Shown here: positions 11,326 to 51,310 of the stretch, piece by piece
Layout: each line of letters starts with the position of its first letter
Numbering within the stretch: the stretch's first letter is position 1
Origin: Polyangia bacterium
GTDB lineage: Bacteria; Myxococcota_A; Polyangia; Fen-1088
Direction of reading: 5' to 3'
Length of the DNA stretch: 64,000 nt
Assembly (NCBI GenBank): GCA_036268875.1
Contig: DATATI010000083.1
Span: 124,001 to 188,000, forward strand
Notes under the pieces: model-generated
What the model was told of the DNA's origin: nothing
Database searches by the model: none
What the model saw: only the letters and a program-made list of their open reading frames with translations
Made by a program: the position numbers and the translations under genes

Positions 11326-12099
11326 CTAAAATCCAATTCGCCGCATCACCAACCGCGGCAGCGCCCGAATCACCAGCATCACCAGCGCCCACATTCCAGG
11401 CGCATACAGCACCGGTTTGCCGCGATCGATTGCCTTCACCACCTGCGCCGCCACGCCCTCCGCCGTGCCGGCGAACGGCGGCGGCTTGAGTCCCTCGGTC
11501 ATGCCGGTCTTGACGAAGCCCGGCTTCACACAGACCGTGCGCAGCCCGGCGGCGCGGAATTTGTGGTCCAGGCCTTCCAGGTAATGCGTCAGGCCGGCCT
11601 TGGCCGCGCCGTACAGGATGACCGGCTTGCGCCCACGCTCGCCCGCCACCGAACTGAAAACGCACAGCGTGCCTCCGCCCCGCGCCAAAAGACGCACCCG
11701 CGCCTCTTCGCAGAAGACCACGGTGTTGGCGAAATCGACGGTCAGCAGGCGGCGGCAGAGCGCGCGATCGTTCTCCAGGCGATCCTGCGTGGCAAACAGG
11801 CCGGCGGTGATGACGACGGTGTCGAACCCGCCCAGCTCCGCGTCCGCTTCGTCCAGCGCGCGCCCGAAGCCGTCGGGATTTTCCAGATCGCAGACCGCGA
11901 ACCCCACCCGCGCCGGTTCCGCCTGACCGGTGGCGCGCCCGGCCGCGGTCGCGCCGGCGCGCGCCCGTAGATCGCCGGCGCTGCGCTGCAGATCGTTGCC
12001 GTCGCGGCCCAGCAGGAAAAGGCGATCCCCGCGCGCCACCAGCTGCCGGGCCAGGGCGCGGCCGATCCCTTTCGTCGCGCCCAGGAAGACCGCCTTCAC
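11326..12099 (-). CDS. dprE2: DprE2-like short-chain dehydrogenase
   Basis: 257-residue SDR protein. Translation most likely starts at GTG 12099, overlapping the upstream stop as GTGA. The NAD-binding GATKGIG is at about residues 7-13, with FSSVAGERG and the catalytic YGAAKAG further on. The C-terminal end (YAPGMWALVMLVIRALPRLVMRRI) closely resembles mycobacterial DprE2, the keto-reductase of the decaprenylphosphoryl-arabinose pathway. Coupling to a DprE1-like oxidase supports a two-step 2'-epimerisation of a lipid-linked sugar. Whether the substrate is ribose is inference; no arabinosyltransferase gene is visible. Confidence 0.85.
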   Translation of the reverse strand: MKAVFLGATKGIGRALARQLVARGDRLFLLGRDGNDLQRSAGDLRARAGATAAGRATGQAEPARVGFAVCDLENPDGFGRALDEADAELGGFDTVVITAGLFATQDRLENDRALCRRLLTVDFANTVVFCEEARVRLLARGGGTLCVFSSVAGERGRKPVILYGAAKAGLTHYLEGLDHKFRAAGLRTVCVKPGFVKTGMTEGLKPPPFAGTAEGVAAQVVKAIDRGKPVLYAPGMWALVMLVIRALPRLVMRRIGF

Positions 12100-13430
12100 G
12101 GCTTGTCCCCGAAAAGCCGCACGGATTGAGCGCTGCGCAGTTTTCCTTCCGGATCCCACTTGCGCCGGATGGCCAGCCATTCGTCCAGGCGCGGCTCCAT
12201 GGCGCGAAAGTGTTCGGGCCGGGTGAAGGCGTCTTTCGTCAGGTAGATGCGCCCGCCTTCTTTGATCACCTGTTCGTTCAGCGCGTCGATCAGCTCTTGC
12301 GTGTCGTCGCGGACCGCGATGTCCAGGGCGATGGAGATCCCCGGCTTGGGAAATGACAGCAGGCCCAGTCCTTCAGGCCCGCAGTCCTTGATCACGCAGA
12401 GAAACGAAGCCCCGCCGTGCGCCACCAACACCTCGAGAAAACGCCGGGCCGCGCCCCGTCCCGCCGATTCGGGCAAGACGCACTGGTGCTGGGTCATGCC
12501 GCGCTTGCCGTAGATGCGGTTCCAGTTGCGCAGGGCATCCAGCGGGTAGAAGTACGTCTCCGGGTGAACGATGCCGCGTTGGTGGCGCCGCAGGTGTCGC
12601 CAGTACAGCACCGGATTCATCAGCTTCACGGACAGCCGGCCCATCGCGAACGGAGGCAAATTGAACGGCACCGAAAAACGGCCCTTGGGGCGCGGTGGGT
12701 GAGCCGGCGCCTCCGACGGTTCGGCCCAGCGGCCTTTGAACAGCGTTCCGCGTCCGAGGCGCTTGCCGCCCGACGTGCAATCGATCCATCCGACGGTCAT
12801 CGGCCAGCGCGGGCCCGCCTCCTTCAAGCCGTGGATGAACTGATCGATGTCGCTGATCCGTTCGCTCTCCCCGTAGATCCACGGCGACGGCACCCGGGCC
12901 AGGCGAAAGCCGACCTCCAGAATGTGGCCGGTGAGGCCCATGCCGCCCAGCGTGGCCCGGAACAGATCGCGCTCCACCGTCGGAGAACAGGTCAGCACGC
13001 GCCCATCGGCGACCCGCAACGTCAGGCTGGTGACGTGGGCACCGAAGCAGCCTTCGCGGTGGTGGTTCTTGCCGTGAATGTCGGCCGCCACCATCCCGCC
13101 CAGGGTCACGTACTGCGTACCGGGCGTGACCGGGGTGAAGAATCCCTGCGGCAAAAACACCCGATAAAGATCGCGCAGCGACAGGCCCGCCTCGGCGCGG
13201 ATGTCACCCGTCTGCGGATCAAACGACAGGATACGGTCGGCCAGCGTGCTGCTGACCACCTCGGCGTCACCGGGCGCCGGCAACGACGAATCACCGTACG
13301 AACGCCCAAGGCCGCGCGACAGCGGATGGCCGACGGTCACCCGCGCCAGATCCTCGGACCGCACCTCGTGTCCGGGAACCACGGGCGAGCGCCCCCATCC
13401 GGAGAGCGTCGGTGTCGCTGAGCCGTTCAC
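12096..13430 (-). CDS. dprE1: DprE1-like FAD-dependent oxidase
   Basis: 444 residues, close to the DprE1 length. The FAD_binding_4 domain has SRGLGRSYGD (about 38-47), the flavin-site DIHGKNHH and LGGMGLTG; the C-terminal half has FYPLDALRNWNRIYG, LSFPKPG and YLTKDAF with the conserved lysine. It would oxidise the 2'-hydroxyl of a polyprenyl-phosphosugar before reduction by the overlapping SDR. The residue aligning with the benzothiazinone-reactive cysteine of mycobacterial DprE1 appears to be alanine (SIALDIAV). The start is GTG 13430, only 42 bases after motB, so it may be co-transcribed with the stator genes. Confidence 0.88.
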   Translation of the reverse strand: MNGSATPTLSGWGRSPVVPGHEVRSEDLARVTVGHPLSRGLGRSYGDSSLPAPGDAEVVSSTLADRILSFDPQTGDIRAEAGLSLRDLYRVFLPQGFFTPVTPGTQYVTLGGMVAADIHGKNHHREGCFGAHVTSLTLRVADGRVLTCSPTVERDLFRATLGGMGLTGHILEVGFRLARVPSPWIYGESERISDIDQFIHGLKEAGPRWPMTVGWIDCTSGGKRLGRGTLFKGRWAEPSEAPAHPPRPKGRFSVPFNLPPFAMGRLSVKLMNPVLYWRHLRRHQRGIVHPETYFYPLDALRNWNRIYGKRGMTQHQCVLPESAGRGAARRFLEVLVAHGGASFLCVIKDCGPEGLGLLSFPKPGISIALDIAVRDDTQELIDALNEQVIKEGGRIYLTKDAFTRPEHFRAMEPRLDEWLAIRRKWDPEGKLRSAQSVRLFGDKP

Positions 13431-25909: not shown

Positions 25910-26230
25910 TTACACCCCCATCCGCATGATCTCGTTGTAAGCGTCCAGCAGCTTGTTGCGGACCTTGGTGGCCAGGCGCAGCGAGATGTCCGCCTTCTCC
26001 AGGGCCAGCGACATCTCGTGCAGGTTGCCGCCGCCCATGGCCACGCGCGCCGCCTGATCGTCGGCGGCCACTTGCGTGCTTTCCACCGCGGAAAACGCCT
26101 TGCCCAGGGTTTCGGCGAACGACGCCCCGTCGGGGCCGCGCAGGTTGCCGGCGGGTGCGCGCGGCCCGTCGATCCCGTCGATGCCGCCCAGGTCGGCGGG
26201 GCTGATGGTCTTGATGTTCTCGATGCTCAT
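25910..26230 (-). CDS. fliE: FliE, MS ring-rod junction protein
   Basis: 106 residues of normal length. The C-terminal helical region (SFAETLGKAFSAVESTQVAADDQAARVAMGGGNLHEMSLALEKADISLRLATKVRNKLLDAYNEIMRMGV) is characteristic. FliE is the first substrate of the export gate and links the MS ring to the rod. It sits between flgC (12 bases upstream) and fliF. Confidence 0.95.
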   Translation of the reverse strand: MSIENIKTISPADLGGIDGIDGPRAPAGNLRGPDGASFAETLGKAFSAVESTQVAADDQAARVAMGGGNLHEMSLALEKADISLRLATKVRNKLLDAYNEIMRMGV

Positions 26231-26242
26231 CGGTCAGTCTCC

Positions 26243-26671
26243 TCAGCGCGAGATGTCCAGGCCCCGCTGGGCCATGGTCTTGAGCGTGTCGATGGCGGTG
26301 GCGTTGGCTTCGTACGTGCGCGACGCCGACATCAGGTTCACCACTTCGTAGACCGGGTTGACGTTGGGGAAGGTGACGAAGCCTTCCGGATCGGCGTCGG
26401 GATGGCCGGGGCTGTACACCTTCTTGCCCGGGCTTTGATCGGCGACGATGCTGGAGATCGTCGGGTCCATCGACGGCGTCATCTCCGATGCCTGGCCTAG
26501 CTCGGGCGCGAACGGCACCGCCTGAATCACCGGATCCAGACGCTTGTAAGGACCGCCGGCGGCGGTGCGGGTGGTCTCGGCGTTGGCCAGGTTCGACGAG
26601 GCCAGGTTCACGCGCGTGCGCTCGACCGAAAGGCCGGAGCCGCTGATGCGCAGGGCGGTGAGAAAGTCCAT
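26243..26671 (-). CDS. flgC: FlgC, proximal rod protein
   Basis: 142 residues. It starts MDFLTALRISGSGLSVERTRVNLASSNLANAETTRTAAGGPYKRLDPVIQAV and ends with the second heptad segment (NPVYEVVNLMSASRTYEANATAIDTLKTMAQRGLDI). Both halves are diagnostic of FlgC. It is followed by fliE in the conserved flgB-flgC-fliE order. Confidence 0.97.
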   Translation of the reverse strand: MDFLTALRISGSGLSVERTRVNLASSNLANAETTRTAAGGPYKRLDPVIQAVPFAPELGQASEMTPSMDPTISSIVADQSPGKKVYSPGHPDADPEGFVTFPNVNPVYEVVNLMSASRTYEANATAIDTLKTMAQRGLDISR

Positions 26672-26700
26672 CGTCTACTCCTTGGTTTCTGTCGCGTCGG

Positions 26701-27128
26701 TTAGCTGCCACCGTCGGTGGCGTAGCGCAAGATGGCCAGCTTCTTCGACGCCGCCCGGGCGCTGGCGCCGTACTGCAACGAGTTCTCGGCCATGCCGGCC
26801 ATGGTGCGATCAAGGTCGACGCCGTTGCCGTCAAAGCTGGGGTTGGTGGTGCCGCGCCCGTCGCTGATCATCGACGCCGCGATCTCGGTGACGCGCGATT
26901 GGTCAGAGATGGTGCCGCCGTTCGCGCCCATGTGATTGGGCTCGGTGGCGGACATGGTGTCGCCGCCGGCGCTGGTGCGCGCCGCCGCCATGGCCGCGCT
27001 GAAGTCCAGCTCCTTGGGTTTGTAGCCAGGGGTGTCGACGTTGGCCACATTGCCGGCCAGAACGTTGTGCTCGACCAGGCGCACGTCCAGCGATTGTTCC
27101 AGTGTGCTCAAAGTGGCGTCGAAGATTT

Positions 27129-27132
<4 letters not shown>
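26701..27132 (-). CDS. flgB: FlgB, proximal rod protein
   Basis: 143 residues. The N-terminus [43 protein letters not shown] is the conserved rod signature, and the C-terminus ([44 protein letters not shown]) matches FlgB. Its ATG overlaps the stop of the sigma-54 activator by four bases, so rod genes are translationally coupled to a regulator gene. Confidence 0.96.
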
Positions 27133-28384
<1,252 letters not shown>

Positions 28385-28388
<4 letters not shown>

Positions 28389-29902
28389 GGTTGTCCCCCT
28401 TGACCGCCGGCTGCGGTCGCTAACTTCTGCATCACCTCGCGGGCACGCCCGCTGACGGCCAGTGCTGCCGCCGTTTCCTTCGCTACCGCTTCCGGATCGA
28501 TGGCCAGGCGCTCTCGGTCTGACGGATCCAGCGCCGCCAGCCCGCGCTGGATGGCCTTCCAGCGCGCCGTCTGAACCTTGTGCGCCGGCAGCGTCATCGC
28601 GTACTCGACCAGCACCCGGGCGCGCATCTCTTCACCACCTTCGATGAACAGCTCGGCGGCGTGAGCCAGATGTTCGGGCAGCGCGGCGGACGGCACCATC
28701 GGCGCCACGGCGGCCAGGATGTTTCCGCCGAACGTCGGAGCGCCCATGCGCTGGGCGGAGTCAGCCGCCGCCTGCGCCAGCTCGACGGCATAAGGGCCGC
28801 GATCCCAGTTGGGCAGCGTCAGGTAAAGGCTCAAGGCCTTCTCCGCCAGGGCCAGTTGCTCGTCCTTGTCAGCGGCTGCGCGCGCGGCGGCGGCCGGCGC
28901 GTCCTCTTTTTTGGTTTTTGGCCCACCGGCCACCACCGGCGCGGACGCACCGAACCTGTACGGCGACGCCGAATCGAACTCTTCGGGCTCGTCGCTGATG
29001 GTCTTCTGGCGAATGATCTCGAGGAGGATGCGGCGGCACAGCCGATCGACGCTGCCCGCGCACAAGGCCTCCGGCCCGTGGTCACCGATCTTGTCGGCCA
29101 GCAGTTTCAACACCGCGGCGAAGTGATCCTGATAAGCCTCGGCGCGGATGGTCCGCATGGTCATCTCCGCCCGCACCGGCAGGGGCAGGCCCGACGAATC
29201 GAAGATCTTCAGCAGCTCAAGCGTCGAGCCGAGACAGTTCCCGTCAATCTCGCAGGTCCGCGTGCGCGCCACGCGCCCGTACACCCCGAGGGTGCCGGTC
29301 CGATCGTACCAGGCCAAAGCGGTGGCCGGATCGCCGGTGAAAAGCGCGATGTCGCCCAGGCGCAGCGCCGCCAGCTGGCGGTTCGGTGTGCGCAGGGCCA
29401 GGCGAAACTGGCGCGCGGCCTCCAGCGGCGTCCCGTTCTGCAGCAGGCACTCGCCCATACCGGCGGGCGTGGTGCCCGGACAGGCGCCGCCCAGGCGGGT
29501 GGCCTCCGGGCTATAGAAAAAAAACGGGGCCCCGCCGGCGCCCTGTCGCCAGGGCAAACCACGCAGCTCGCGGATGTCCAGGTACGACGCGCCCTTGTCA
29601 GTGGTGAGGGTGGCGTCCAGGCGGCGGGTGCGGCAACGCAGATCCAGTCCCGTCGGGTTTTCGGTGATCTGCGGGCAGATCCAGGCGGCGTGCGCGGCGA
29701 TGCGAATCGCCACCGCCGCTTTGTCTTTCGGCGCTTCGATCTGGAGGCGCGCGCCCAATGAATCGACGACCAGCTTGATCGGACCGTGCAGGCGCGGCAG
29801 CGGCACGCGTTCGGCGACCACGGCGGTGGTCGCGGCCGTGCCGCGCGGTTGGTCGTCGGCTGCGGCAGCCGTCAGCGCCAGTATGAAGAGCCCCGCTAGC
29901 AA
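28385..29902 (-). CDS. Exported TPR-like protein of unknown function, first gene of the fli operon
   Basis: 505 residues. Translation starts at TTG 29902, the only start after the in-frame stop, with GGAG seven bases upstream. A signal peptide ([15 protein letters not shown]) is followed by a beta-rich domain (about 40-120) with paired cysteines and then helical repeats that resemble TPR ([39 protein letters not shown]). A charged Ala/Lys linker splits the helical part near residue 335. I do not recognise the family. A -24/-12 promoter match lies immediately upstream, so it is probably a flagellar-regulon protein of the periplasm, perhaps a motor accessory. Confidence 0.8.
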
Positions 29903-30070: not shown

Positions 30071-31357
<1,287 letters not shown>

Positions 31358-31552
31358 CCGGGTCTCCTCCAAGCGAGTACATGGCCTTCCCATCGGCCGC
31401 CTGGCTATTTTCTTTAGGGTCAAACCTGAGCAAACCATTCAGCAAAGTCTGGCAACCAGGAGCCGTGGGTCATTTCGGCCCCGTACCTTCAGATGATCGG
31501 AGAAAGCGTCGAGGACGGTTACCGGCGCGGTGGTCACGCGCGACCCCCACTC

Positions 31553-32845
31553 ATGAGCTTTCGCGACCCGGTTCCCAAGCGCCCTGCCCGCCCCATCGCG
31601 GAGGCCGGCCGCGCATCGGCGGCCAATCGTCTTCACCGCGTCGAGGTGATGAACGCCAGCCGCTGGCGCCGGCCCGCGGTGGACAAGCGACCGCGCATCG
31701 TCGCCGTGGGCGGCGGGACCATGGGCGTGGGCAAAAGCTCGGTGGCCAGCAACCTGGCGGTGGCCATCGCCGGCCTCGGCCATCAAGTGGTGCTGGTCGA
31801 TCTGGATCTGGAGGCGCCGCAGCTGCATCGCCTGTTCGGCATCGATCGTCCGGTGCCCGGCCTGCAGGCGCTGTTGCACCACGAGATCGAAAACTTTGAC
31901 GTGTCGCTGACGTCGACCGGGATCAAGAACCTGCACCTCATCGCCGGCGGCGACGGCGCCGACGGCCACCTGTATCTGGATCGCGGACAGAAACACCACC
32001 TGGCCAGGCAGATCAACGAGCTGGAAAGCGAAGTCATCGTGGTCGACATCGGGGCGTCGAACCGCGGCGACCTCCTGGACTTCTTCGCCATCGGCGCCGT
32101 GCGCCTGGCGGTGTCGACGTCGACGACGCCCGCGCTGGAACGGGCGTACGCGTTCTTGAAAGGCGCCACCCGCCGCGCCATCGATCAATATGGCGGCGCC
32201 AGCGAACAGGCCCTGGCCAGCTTCGGCGGCGCGCTGATCGGCAACATGTCCACCAGCGCCGACGACACCGAACGGTTTCACGCCTTCGCCCGCCTGGTCG
32301 AAGAACACCTGGGCATCCAGCTTCCGGTGCTGGGCTGCCTGCGCACCGACGAGCGCGTGGCAGAATCGGCGCGCCAGCGGCGGCCCTTGCTGGCCCTTCC
32401 CGGCGTTGATCAGAATGTCCATACCTTCCACCGAATGGCCGAACACCTGATGTCCGATGAGGTCTTCGTCTCGCCCGCCTGCGATCTGGTGCCGGCCACG
32501 TCCAGCACCTTCGCCGACCAGCCGTTGCCGTCCCCGCTGGAGGCGTACATGCGGCGCCACCCGCGCCATGCCGTCAACTGGATGGCCACGCTGATCGTGG
32601 GCGACCGGTCGCTGCCGGTGCGGATGATCGACGTTTCGGTGAGCGGCGCCGCGCTGGAAGCAATGCCCGGCCTGACCGTCGGCGACCAGGCGGTGCTGCG
32701 CCTGGATCAATTGCCCGGACCGCCCTCGGTCGAGGTCCTCATTCAAAACATCAAGCCGACGCTGTCCCGGATCGGTGTGGCCTTTCTCGGCGACACCGGT
32801 GTCCCGGCCCAGCTGATTGACGCCGCCGTCAACCCGCGCTCATGA
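31553..32845 (+). CDS. flhG: FlhG/FleN-like MinD ATPase fused to a PilZ domain
   Basis: 430 residues from ATG 31553; ATG 31493 and ATG 31646 are other options. The MinD/ParA-type ATPase covers about 47-310: a Walker A at GGGTMGVGKSS (53-63) followed by SNLAVAIAGLGHQVVLVDLDLEAPQLHRL, VVDIGASNRGDLLDFF and STSTTPALERAYAFLK, the FlhG-type order. The signature lysine of the deviant Walker A is replaced by threonine, and no DQAxxLR FlhF-activating motif is seen at the N-terminus. Residues 334-425 are a PilZ domain with R334xxxR338 and D360VSVSG365, the c-di-GMP-binding residues. It probably limits flagellar number or restrains the divergent FleQ-like activator in response to c-di-GMP. Confidence 0.82.
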   Translation: MSFRDPVPKRPARPIAEAGRASAANRLHRVEVMNASRWRRPAVDKRPRIVAVGGGTMGVGKSSVASNLAVAIAGLGHQVVLVDLDLEAPQLHRLFGIDRPVPGLQALLHHEIENFDVSLTSTGIKNLHLIAGGDGADGHLYLDRGQKHHLARQINELESEVIVVDIGASNRGDLLDFFAIGAVRLAVSTSTTPALERAYAFLKGATRRAIDQYGGASEQALASFGGALIGNMSTSADDTERFHAFARLVEEHLGIQLPVLGCLRTDERVAESARQRRPLLALPGVDQNVHTFHRMAEHLMSDEVFVSPACDLVPATSSTFADQPLPSPLEAYMRRHPRHAVNWMATLIVGDRSLPVRMIDVSVSGAALEAMPGLTVGDQAVLRLDQLPGPPSVEVLIQNIKPTLSRIGVAFLGDTGVPAQLIDAAVNPRS

Positions 32846-33954
32846 GTTTGCCGTCGATCCAGGACGCCACCCACGACTACGAATCGTGGCTGGGGGCCCG
32901 CATGCCGCTGGTGGCGGATGACCTGCGGTTCAAGCACCGCCTGATGCGCGCCGCCACCTTCCCGTTCATGCGCGGCACGTTTTATCGCTGGTGTCAGCGC
33001 TGGCAAACGTTGCGCCCCGGCGACCACGATGACGGCGGCGACGGCGAGCCGGCGGTGCCGGTGCTGGCGGTGGGCGATCTGCACGTGGAAAACTTCGGTA
33101 CCTGGCGCGACAGCGACGGCCGGCTGATCTGGGGCATCAACGATCTCGATGAAGCGGCGCGCCTGCCCTGGACGCAAGACGTGGTGCGCCTGATCTGCAG
33201 CGCGTTTTTGGCCGTCGACGCCGATCATCTGGTGATCCGGCGCGGCGAGGCGGCCGACGCCATCTTCGAGGGCTATCGCGACGGCATCGCCAGCGGTGGA
33301 CGGCCCTTCGTGCTGGAAGAAGACAACGCCTGGCTGCGCCGGCTGGCGACCAGCGAGATGCGCGCCCCGGCGGCGTTCTGGCGCAAGACCGAAGCGCTGC
33401 CGACCGCCCGCCATCCCGATCCGAAGGTGGTCGCCGTCCTGACCGCCGCGCTGCCACACCCGACGCAGCGGCTGCGCATCGCCCGGCGCGTGGCCGGCGT
33501 GGGCAGCCTGGGCCGCCCGCGCTTCGTGGCCATCGCCCGCTGTCGCGGCGGGGCGGTGGCGCGCGAGGCGAAGGCCACCGCACCGTCGGCGGTGCTGTGG
33601 GCGCGCGGACGCACCGTCGGGCGGGGCACCGTGGTGGCCATCGAACGGGTCAACGCCGAAGCGGTGCGCGCCCCCGATCCGATGATGAAGGTCGTCGGCC
33701 CGTGGCTGGTGCGACGCCTGGCTCCGCACTGCACGCGCATCAGCCTGGAAGATCTCCCGGTCCAGCGCGACGAAGAGCGGCTGCTTTACGCCATGGGCTT
33801 CGAGACCGCCAACATTCACCTCGGCACGCCGGAGACCGGCCCGCGCATCGCCCGCCAACTGCGGCGACGCCGCGGGCGCTGGCTGCGCGCCACCGCCAAG
33901 GCTTTCGCCGCCGCGGTGGCCCAGGACTTTGCGGCGTTCCGCGCGCACGCTTGA
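32842..33954 (+). CDS. DUF2252 family protein
   Basis: 370 residues. Characteristic stretches are FPFMRGTFYRW, VGDLHVENFGTWRDSDGRLIWGINDLDEAARLPWTQDVVRL and LLYAMGFETANIHLGT. DUF2252 members have a kinase-like fold and no firmly established reaction. The ATG overlaps the FlhG-PilZ stop by four bases, so the two are translationally coupled, which is unexplained. A hairpin follows the stop codon. Confidence 0.85.
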   Translation: MSLPSIQDATHDYESWLGARMPLVADDLRFKHRLMRAATFPFMRGTFYRWCQRWQTLRPGDHDDGGDGEPAVPVLAVGDLHVENFGTWRDSDGRLIWGINDLDEAARLPWTQDVVRLICSAFLAVDADHLVIRRGEAADAIFEGYRDGIASGGRPFVLEEDNAWLRRLATSEMRAPAAFWRKTEALPTARHPDPKVVAVLTAALPHPTQRLRIARRVAGVGSLGRPRFVAIARCRGGAVAREAKATAPSAVLWARGRTVGRGTVVAIERVNAEAVRAPDPMMKVVGPWLVRRLAPHCTRISLEDLPVQRDEERLLYAMGFETANIHLGTPETGPRIARQLRRRRGRWLRATAKAFAAAVAQDFAAFRAHA

Positions 33955-33987: not shown

Positions 33988-35169
33988 GTGGCAACGATGC
34001 CGAGGACCGATCGCCGGCGACGGCCTTTCGCCACGCTGACCACGCTGCCGCTGCTGCTGGCGGCGGGCGCGCTGGTCGGCTGTCATCAGCGGCCTGATCA
34101 AACGCCCACCGACGGCGCCGCCGACGCTGCGCCGTTTGACGCCCCCGCCGGCGACGGGATCGCGCCCTTGTCCCTGGATTTCACCGCCACCGGCTGCGAC
34201 ACCTTCGACCTCGGGGCCAGCCGCTGCGCGGGCGCGGCGCCGCTGACGGTGATCTTCTCGCCCATCGGCTCGCCGTCGCTGACCCAGTTTCTCTGGGACT
34301 TCGGCGACGGCACGCCGACGTCGAAGGCGCGCGCGCCGACGCACACCTATACGTTGCCCGGATCGTTCACCGTCACGCTGGTGGGAGACGGAGCCAGCGG
34401 CAGCCTGTCGCGGATGCACACGCAGTTCATCGTCGTCGCGGTGGCCACCCTGGGCCAGCGTTGCGACGTCGACGCTCAGTGCGACACCGGCCTGCGCTGT
34501 CTGTGTGGGTCGACCGCTGATTGCGGCGATGCCTTCGCGCGCGGGCTGTGCGTCGTCGACTGCGCGCCAGGCGCCTGCGCCAGCGGCGCGGTGTGCGCCG
34601 ATCTGTGGGCAGGCGCGCCCACCGATCCAGCCCAGGCGGCGCCGTACCAGCGCGCCCTGTGCCTGTCTGCCTGCGCCGATGACACGACCTGCGCGCCCGG
34701 ACTGCATTGCCGCCAGCTTCCCTCCGGCGGCGGCGGGCCGGCAGCAGCCGCGCCGGCCTGGGTGCGTGGTTGCTTCGCGCCGGTCCCCGCCGACGTCGGC
34801 CAGCCCTGCCGCTCGCCCGACGGAACATTGTCGGCCGCCGCCTGCACCAGCGGCCAGTGTGTCGATCTCGGCGCGCTGGGCCTGTGCACCGCCACCTGTG
34901 ACGCCGCCGGCGGCTGCCCCGACGGAAGCGCCTGCGCGCTGTTCGGCGACGGGCGATCACTGTGTTTGCAGGCTTGCGCCGCTGACGCCGACTGCGCCGA
35001 CGATCCGCTGTTCCGCTGTCAGGCCTCGGCTTCGTCGACGGGCGCGCTGGGGTTCACCTTGGTCGCGCCCAGCGCCGCCGCGATGGTCTGTGCGCCGATG
35101 CCCTGCCAGGCCGACGCCGATTGCCAGCCGTCCGGCGCCTGCACCGACGGCCACTGCCACGCGCTTTGA
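33988..35169 (+). CDS. Cys-rich lipoprotein with a PKD domain
   Basis: 393 residues from GTG 33988 (ATG 33997 is an alternative). A basic N-terminus and hydrophobic segment end in a lipobox LVGC. A PKD-like domain follows (about 65-150) with FLWDFGDGTPTSKARAPTHTYTLPGSFTVTL. The remaining about 240 residues are rich in paired cysteines arranged in repeated C-x4-6-C modules (CDVDAQCDTGLRCLC, CADDTTCAPGLHC, CAADADCADDPLFRC), common in outer-surface lipoproteins of Myxococcota. The function is unknown; surface adhesion or matrix binding is inference. Confidence 0.82.
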   Translation: MATMPRTDRRRRPFATLTTLPLLLAAGALVGCHQRPDQTPTDGAADAAPFDAPAGDGIAPLSLDFTATGCDTFDLGASRCAGAAPLTVIFSPIGSPSLTQFLWDFGDGTPTSKARAPTHTYTLPGSFTVTLVGDGASGSLSRMHTQFIVVAVATLGQRCDVDAQCDTGLRCLCGSTADCGDAFARGLCVVDCAPGACASGAVCADLWAGAPTDPAQAAPYQRALCLSACADDTTCAPGLHCRQLPSGGGGPAAAAPAWVRGCFAPVPADVGQPCRSPDGTLSAAACTSGQCVDLGALGLCTATCDAAGGCPDGSACALFGDGRSLCLQACAADADCADDPLFRCQASASSTGALGFTLVAPSAAAMVCAPMPCQADADCQPSGACTDGHCHAL

Positions 35170-49375: not shown

Positions 49376-51310
49376 GTGCGATCGCTGGCGGGACGGTACG
49401 GAGATCTCGCGCTGGCCGCGCTGGTGGTCGGCATCGTCGGCATGATGATCCTGCCGCTGCCGACGGCGCTCATCGATCTGCTGCTGTCCACCAATGTCGC
49501 GGTGGCGGTGACGCTGTTGCTGACGTCGCTGTACGTCACTGACGCGCTCAAGATCGCCACCTTCCCTACCCTGTTGCTGCTGACCACGCTGTTTCGGCTG
49601 GCGCTGGAGGTGTCGGCCACGCGCCTCATCTTGACTCGCGGCAACGCCGGCCAGGTCATCGCCGCCTTCGGACACTTCGTGGTGGGCGGCAACCTGGTGG
49701 TGGGCGCGGTGATCTTCCTCATCCTCACGCTGATCCAGTTCATCGTCATCACCAAAGGCGCCGAGCGCATCGCCGAGGTGGCCGCGCGTTTCACCCTGGA
49801 CGCCATGCCCGGCAAACAGCTTGGCATCGACGCCGAGCTGCGCGCCGGCCACATCGACGCCACGGAAGCGCAACGCCGCCGAGCGGCCCTGGGCCGCGAA
49901 TCGCAGCTTTTCGGATCGATGGACGGCGCCATGAAGTTCGTCAAAGGCGACGCCATCGCCGGCGTGGCGATCCTGGCGGTGAACATCGTGGGCGGTTTGG
50001 TCGTCGGAATTTTCCAGCGCGGCCTGGACGCCGGCGCGGCCGCGCGCACGTACACGCTGCTGACCATCGGCGCCGGACTGGTGGCGCAGATCCCGGCGCT
50101 GTTGATCTCGACCGCCGCCGGGATCGTGGTGACGCGGGTGGCGTCAGAGGACGGCCCGTCGCACCTGGGCCAGGACATCGCGCGCGAGCTGTCGGCGAAT
50201 CCCAAGGCCATCGCCATCGCGGCGGTGCTGCTGGGGTTGCTGGCCGTCGTCCCCGGGTTGCCGGCGTTGCCGTTCTTGGGACTGGCTGTGTTACTGGGCG
50301 CGGGCGCGCTGCGCCTGCAGCGGCGAGCGGCGGTGCGCGACGGTAATGGCACCGACGGAGAAAGCGCCGATGCGGGCGCGCGCCGCGCCGGCCTGCCGGG
50401 CGAGCTGGCGACGCCGCTGGCCATCGACGCCGCGCCGGCGCTGGCGCGAACGTTGGGCGCCGCCGACCGGGCGTTCTTGGCCCGGGAAGTTCCCACGCTG
50501 CGCCGGCGGCTGTTCGACGACGCCGGCCTGGTCATGCCGGCGGTGATCGTCCGGCCGCGCCCGCTGGCCGAGCGATCGTTCGTCATCCGCCTGAACGACA
50601 CGCCGCTGCTCCGTGGCCAGGTGCCGGTCGACCGCGACGGCGACGACGAAAGCGCCCACGTGATCGGCGAGCATCTTTGGGCGCTGCTGCGGCGTTACGG
50701 CCACGAGCTCGTCGGCATTCAAGAGACCCAGTCGCTGCTGGACGACGTGCAGCGCTCGCACCCGGCGCTGGTCCGCGAGGTGGTGCCGAAGATGGTGACG
50801 CCCGCGCTGCTGGCCGAGGTGCTGCGGCGATTGGCCCAGGAAGGCGTCTCGCTGCGCGGGCTGCGCGAGATGTTGGGTGCGCTGGCTGATCGCCAACCCG
50901 GCGCCGGCAACGCCGATGCCGCCGCCCTGACCGAACAGGTGCGGGCGGCGCTTCGGCGCACCATCACCTTCCAGCATGCCGACGGCGACGGTCGCATCAG
51001 CGCGCTGCTTCTGGATCCGCTGATCGAAGACACCATTCGCGACGCCATCCATCGCACGCCGACCGGCAACCATCTGGCCCTCGAGCCGCAACTGGCGCGC
51101 GACATTCAGGCGGCCATCGGACGCGCCGCCAGCGCCGCTCGCCAGGACGATGGCAACGGAGCGGTGGCGCCCGTGCTGCTGACGAATCCGGCCATCCGAC
51201 CCTTCGTGCGAAGGCTGATCGAACAGCAGGAGCCGGCGCTGGCGGTCCTGTCGTTTCTTGAGCTGGCGCCCGAAGCCGAGGTGCGCACGCTGGGCCACGT
51301 CCGGGTTTGA
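49376..51310 (+). CDS. Orphan SctV/FlhA-like type III export-gate protein
   Basis: 644 residues from GTG 49376, FHIPEP family, closer to SctV of injectisomes than to the FlhA at 991-3090 by eye. The membrane part has LPLPTALIDLLLSTNVAVAVTLLLTSLYV, FPTLLLLTTLFRLALEVSATRLIL and RESQLFGSMDGAMKFVKGDAIAGVAILAVNIVGGLVVGIFQRG. The cytosolic half (about 345-640) keeps the ring-forming domain (GHELVGIQETQSLLDDVQRSHPALVREVVPKMVTPALLAEVLRRLAQEGVSLRGLREMLGALAD). No other type III secretion genes surround it; neighbours are a DoxX protein and lipoproteins. Confidence 0.9.
   Translation: MRSLAGRYGDLALAALVVGIVGMMILPLPTALIDLLLSTNVAVAVTLLLTSLYVTDALKIATFPTLLLLTTLFRLALEVSATRLILTRGNAGQVIAAFGHFVVGGNLVVGAVIFLILTLIQFIVITKGAERIAEVAARFTLDAMPGKQLGIDAELRAGHIDATEAQRRRAALGRESQLFGSMDGAMKFVKGDAIAGVAILAVNIVGGLVVGIFQRGLDAGAAARTYTLLTIGAGLVAQIPALLISTAAGIVVTRVASEDGPSHLGQDIARELSANPKAIAIAAVLLGLLAVVPGLPALPFLGLAVLLGAGALRLQRRAAVRDGNGTDGESADAGARRAGLPGELATPLAIDAAPALARTLGAADRAFLAREVPTLRRRLFDDAGLVMPAVIVRPRPLAERSFVIRLNDTPLLRGQVPVDRDGDDESAHVIGEHLWALLRRYGHELVGIQETQSLLDDVQRSHPALVREVVPKMVTPALLAEVLRRLAQEGVSLRGLREMLGALADRQPGAGNADAAALTEQVRAALRRTITFQHADGDGRISALLLDPLIEDTIRDAIHRTPTGNHLALEPQLARDIQAAIGRAASAARQDDGNGAVAPVLLTNPAIRPFVRRLIEQQEPALAVLSFLELAPEAEVRTLGHVRV

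Follow-up and report, generated by a model that had tools for sequence, protein, structure and literature searches.

A PilZ-fused FlhG/FleN-like P-loop protein encoded beside a flagellar sigma-54 activator in a Polyangia bacterium

Results

The fusion gene and its locus

The window analysed here is a stretch of 64,000 nucleotides of a Polyangia bacterium genome (contig DATATI010000083.1, here C83, positions 124001-188000). It encodes a protein that joins a MinD-type P-loop domain to a C-terminal PilZ domain, and the gene lies between EBP1, a flagellar sigma-54 activator, and a gene for a surface lipoprotein (Table 1). The ORF of the fusion gene (31493-32845, plus strand) comprises 450 aa. The start at 31553 (MSFR...) that an earlier note had chosen is supported by orthologues starting with MSDR at the same alignment position and by the gap that it leaves to the likely start of EBP1 (31357), which is 195 bp in the window and 191-194 bp in genomes G284 and G285. 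An alternative start at 31649 would cut through a conserved motif, VxVMxSGRWxPP, and was therefore rejected.

Table 1 Features of the fusion-gene locus (window positions; residues marked † follow the numbering of the earlier note)
Feature	Positions	Strand	Remarks
flgB, flgC, fliE	25910-27132	-	names from synteny, blast to relatives and operon order; flagellar operon continues downstream
EBP2, second sigma-54 activator	27129-28388	-	upstream of flgB
TPR-like protein	28385-29902	-	conserved between EBP1 and flgB across the order
EBP1, sigma-54 activator	30071-31357	-	AAA+ with GAFTGA, Fis HTH_8; ORF extends to 31438
Divergent intergenic region	31358-31552	.	length conserved in G284/G285
PilZ-fused FlhG/FleN-like P-loop protein	31553-32845	+	430 aa from ATG 31553; ORF from 31493
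MinD/ParA-type P-loop domain	31694-32386	+	ORF residues 68-298
Degenerate deviant Walker A, GGTMGVGKS	31712-31738	+	GxGKS kept; Thr at signature Lys position
PilZ domain	32552-32815	+	ORF residues 354-441; Pfam PF07238, E=8.2e-8
RRHPR (RxxxR c-di-GMP motif)	32552-32566	+	R334-R338†
DVSVSG (DxSxxG c-di-GMP motif)	32630-32647	+	D360-G365†
DUF2252 protein	32842-33954	+	overlaps fusion-gene stop
PKD-domain Cys-rich putative lipoprotein	33988-35169	+	

The P-loop half matched the Pfam families ParA (E=1.3e-10) and CbiA (E=1.1e-9), and the solved structures nearest to the family profile were FleN (5J1J, E 2e-30) and FlhG (4RZ2, E 9e-27), in agreement with the FlhG/FleN-like ATPase domain described in the earlier note. 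This domain is about 40 aa shorter in the window protein than in most relatives. A Pfam check likewise recovered the predicted PilZ domain (33.0 bits; cut-off 22.5), with both c-di-GMP-binding motifs at the residues given before. In an alignment of 11 relatives, R334, R338, S362 and G365 were invariant, and D360 was variable, being Glu in three. The reported replacement of the signature lysine by threonine in the deviant Walker A motif was also confirmed, as was the lack of the FlhF-activating N-terminal DQAxxLR helix in the window protein. Pfam gave no match to the YcgR N-terminal domain up to E=1. A single-sequence AlphaFold prediction had a pLDDT of 33 and was discarded. The linker between the ATPase and PilZ parts carries a cysteine (32480-32482; ORF residue C330, C310 in the earlier numbering), which is present in all six members of the protein's own clade (see below) and not in other relatives.

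EBP1 had been called FleQ-like. It shares with FleQ a sigma-54 AAA+ domain with GAFTGA, a Fis HTH and a position at the head of flagellar genes, and the description as a divergent flagellar-operon activator holds. However, it lacks the FleQ N-terminal domain: Pfam matched neither this domain (up to E=1) nor a receiver domain. Of the order's 18 genomes, 11 encode an EBP1 orthologue (E<=1e-90), and each of these 11 has flagellar genes. In all flagellated genera examined within the order, the orthologue heads an EBP1-TPR-(EBP2)-flgB-flgC-fliE-fliF-fliG arrangement. The divergent pairing of fusion gene and EBP1 is conserved in G000, G284 and G285; no fusion protein adjoins the EBP1 orthologues of genera g2, g192 and g194. 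The PKD lipoprotein gene is found in 17 of the 18 genomes, mostly with no fusion protein beside it; in genus g193 it is the next gene after the fusion gene. The motA and motB genes are about 17 kb from the fusion gene in the window. A sigma-54 promoter scan gave one match, below chance expectation. Genes for a short-chain dehydrogenase (SDR) and a DprE1-like oxidase (11326-13430, minus strand) lie between flagellar genes of the window. A second FHIPEP-family protein (49376-51310, plus strand) is SctV-like and scored below the flagellar FlhA cut-off; such a protein is common to the flagella-less g193 genomes and may mark a non-flagellar type III secretion locus.

A separate canonical FlhG and other paralogues

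The earlier note's reading of the fusion protein as the cell's FlhG/FleN was not supported. The fusion gene is not beside flhF: that position is taken by a canonical FlhG gene (C83:122911-123783, just before the window start) in the order flhB-flhA-flhF-flhG; the next gene encodes a sigma factor with regions 2, 3 and 4. This FlhG carries SGKGGVGKT and, at its N-terminus, DQADSLR, and it is without a PilZ domain. Therefore, the window protein is a further paralogue and not the FlhG of this genome. A separate FlhG-like gene was likewise present in all other tested genomes with FlhF over the cut-off except G047, in which the best match was the fusion-family member itself.

The genome encodes a second full-length PilZ fusion on contig C14. 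It has a canonical GGGKGGVGKS, and the genes near it are ligA, Smr and GAPDH rather than flagellar genes. A search of the genome's contigs for related loci gave one distant match. Another paralogue of the same genome (L041:3630-5459, minus strand) combines a ParA-like domain with J-domain-like and HTH-like parts behind it; in the control set used below, paralogues of this type were never found near flagellar genes. Genome G000 (6.15 Mb) has 33 PilZ matches.

The clade of the window protein and the lost lysine

A phylogeny placed the window protein in a clade of six (support 100/99) with the proteins of G284, G285 and the three g193 genomes, sister to the C14-type proteins of the order (99/95). 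The signature lysine is missing in all six: it is Thr in the window protein and Arg, Arg, Leu, Leu and Gly in its five orthologues. GxGKS and the aspartates D83, D85 and D165 are kept in every member. The K19A exchange of this lysine in FleN prevents dimerisation and lowers the ATPase activity to about 16% (PMC10723142). The ParA family ATPase McdA, which has lost the lysine naturally, shows unusually high ATPase activity (PMC6328274). These precedents point in opposite directions, and the lysine-less clade therefore may, rather than must, have lost the standard ATPase cycle.

EBP1 and the PKD lipoprotein gene are neighbours in G299 and G269, and no recognisable fusion gene separates them. Thus, the fusion gene was probably acquired at this site, by duplication of a C14-type gene, in the ancestry of g1, g190 and g193. 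Its dN/dS in g190 is 0.13.

Retention of the fusion protein in a genus without detected flagellar genes

For genus g193 there are three draft genomes, with a completeness of 91-94%. None of them yielded flagellar-type FlhA, FliG, FlhF or FlhG, apart from one weak 26-bit FliG match in G298. Beside the g193 fusion gene, EBP1 is cut to 110-127 aa, with the Fis HTH kept and the AAA+ domain gone. Adjoining this remnant are homologues of the SDR and DprE1 genes that lie next to motB in the window. The fusion gene itself had a dN/dS of 0.16 between two g193 genomes (Nei-Gojobori), with about 0.15 over the first three quarters and 0.19 over the last quarter. Both halves of the protein are therefore under purifying selection and the gene is maintained. 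Provided that the absence of flagellar genes is real, the maintained role in g193 cannot be flagellar, and a purely flagellar role of the protein is contradicted. Flagella also seem to be absent from another genus of the order, g191 (G286-G288), which has no FliG, no fusion protein and only SctV-like FlhA matches.

The wider family

Searches of the phylum and the class returned many MinD-type relatives, many of them fused to PilZ; in this sample, relatives whose match reached the PilZ end came from the same class only. The Pfam PilZ cut-off was passed by the window protein, L058 and all ten further relatives from six families. In the G284 copy PilZ was unreported at E<=0.01, although the motifs can be aligned and the sister protein of G285 is above the cut-off. 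A literature search, with subscription papers mostly outside its reach, found no published description of a MinD/FlhG-PilZ fusion.

A flagellar gene lay within 8 kb at 22 of 52 family loci and at none of 21 control loci (Fisher p=1.4e-4), the control being HTH/J-domain-type paralogues mostly from the same genomes. Many of the 22 loci come from one family (f8) and so are not independent; flagellar neighbours still occur in eight families. GGDEF genes were near 8 of the 52 family loci and none of the controls, which alone is not significant (p=0.095). The family gene precedes motA-motB-GGDEF at two loci (L068, L106), follows motA-motB at L072 and stands between fliL and motA at L069; other relatives adjoin fliL, NeuB, Maf or flagellin genes. 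PilZ-less relatives (L069, L075, L124, L125 and similar) lie in fliL-NeuB-Maf-flagellin loci and represent a second flagellar MinD-type protein.

Discussion

The reading that we tentatively prefer is that the window protein is a lineage-specific FlhG/FleN-type paralogue which, with its PilZ domain, acts as a c-di-GMP-responsive adaptor on its own regulatory locus. The PilZ half would bind c-di-GMP, and the P-loop half would bind nucleotide through GxGKS, without the normal ATP-sandwich-dimer cycle. c-di-GMP may then switch the contact of the protein with EBP1, its DNA-binding tail or its promoter; because this switch would act at the protein's own locus, the output could be tuned by c-di-GMP without passing through the true FlhG. 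Such an adaptor is likelier than flagellar counting, because g193 lost the flagellar genes and kept the fusion protein under purifying selection. The target of FleN on FleQ is the AAA+ domain (PMC10723142). Since this domain of EBP1 is gone in g193, a FleN-like contact with EBP1 cannot be the sole function of the fusion protein. The EBP1 orthologues of g2, g192 and g194, which do without an adjacent fusion protein, also count against the preferred reading. The co-persistence of the HTH tail and the fusion protein in g193 could also be hitch-hiking at one locus.

That the window protein itself counts and places flagella as a true FlhG/FleN, with c-di-GMP acting directly on it, is very improbable. 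FleN and FlhG are its closest solved structures, with a shared MinD-type P-loop domain, and like theirs its gene is near a flagellar sigma-54 activator, from which it diverges. However, the window protein differs from them in having PilZ and in lacking both the signature lysine, whose exchange costs FleN its dimerisation and most of its ATPase activity, and DQAxxLR; its gene is outside the flhF operon of a genome that has its own FlhG, and it is kept where FlhF and flagella are absent. McdA offers a parallel for the natural loss of the lysine, with Ser in place of the Thr, Arg, Leu or Gly of the clade, but it has no PilZ domain and another target.

A non-flagellar surface function, with the PKD lipoprotein or another envelope system and with the flagellar neighbourhood as a historical remnant, is somewhat unlikely. 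The fusion gene, under purifying selection, and the PKD gene are both kept in flagella-less g193, and the C14 paralogue has no flagellar neighbours, but flagellar loci are over-represented in the wider family and most genomes with the PKD gene have no adjacent fusion protein. We consider it unlikely, slightly more so, that the protein is a motor or stator effector like YcgR and MotL, in which the PilZ half would place the motor under c-di-GMP control and the MinD-type half would serve as an adaptor for localisation. The stator, fliL, NeuB, Maf and flagellin neighbours of relatives are in its favour, as is the PilZ protein MotL of Shewanella, whose gene immediately follows motA-motB (PMC8203827); RxxxR and DxSxxG are also shared with these effectors. 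Against it are the distance to motA and motB in the window, the retention in g193, and a partner domain that is a MinD-type ATPase and not the YcgR N-terminal domain or none.

A broader extension of the adaptor reading is speculative and, on balance, doubtful: MinD-type ATPases of flagellar loci across the class may have gained PilZ and become direct c-di-GMP receptors, and the lysine-less branch may have outlived the flagellum and now form a new regulatory pair under c-di-GMP with the DNA-binding tail that is left of the activator. Testable pairs are the fusion protein with EBP1 and with the Fis tail of EBP1. If the adaptor reading is correct, the c-di-GMP receptor would be on the MinD-type partner and not on the activator as in FleQ. 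Genus g193 is a natural experiment which indicates that a MinD-type PilZ fusion can outlast the flagellum, and across a single class the family connects MinD-type ATPases with stator genes and c-di-GMP.
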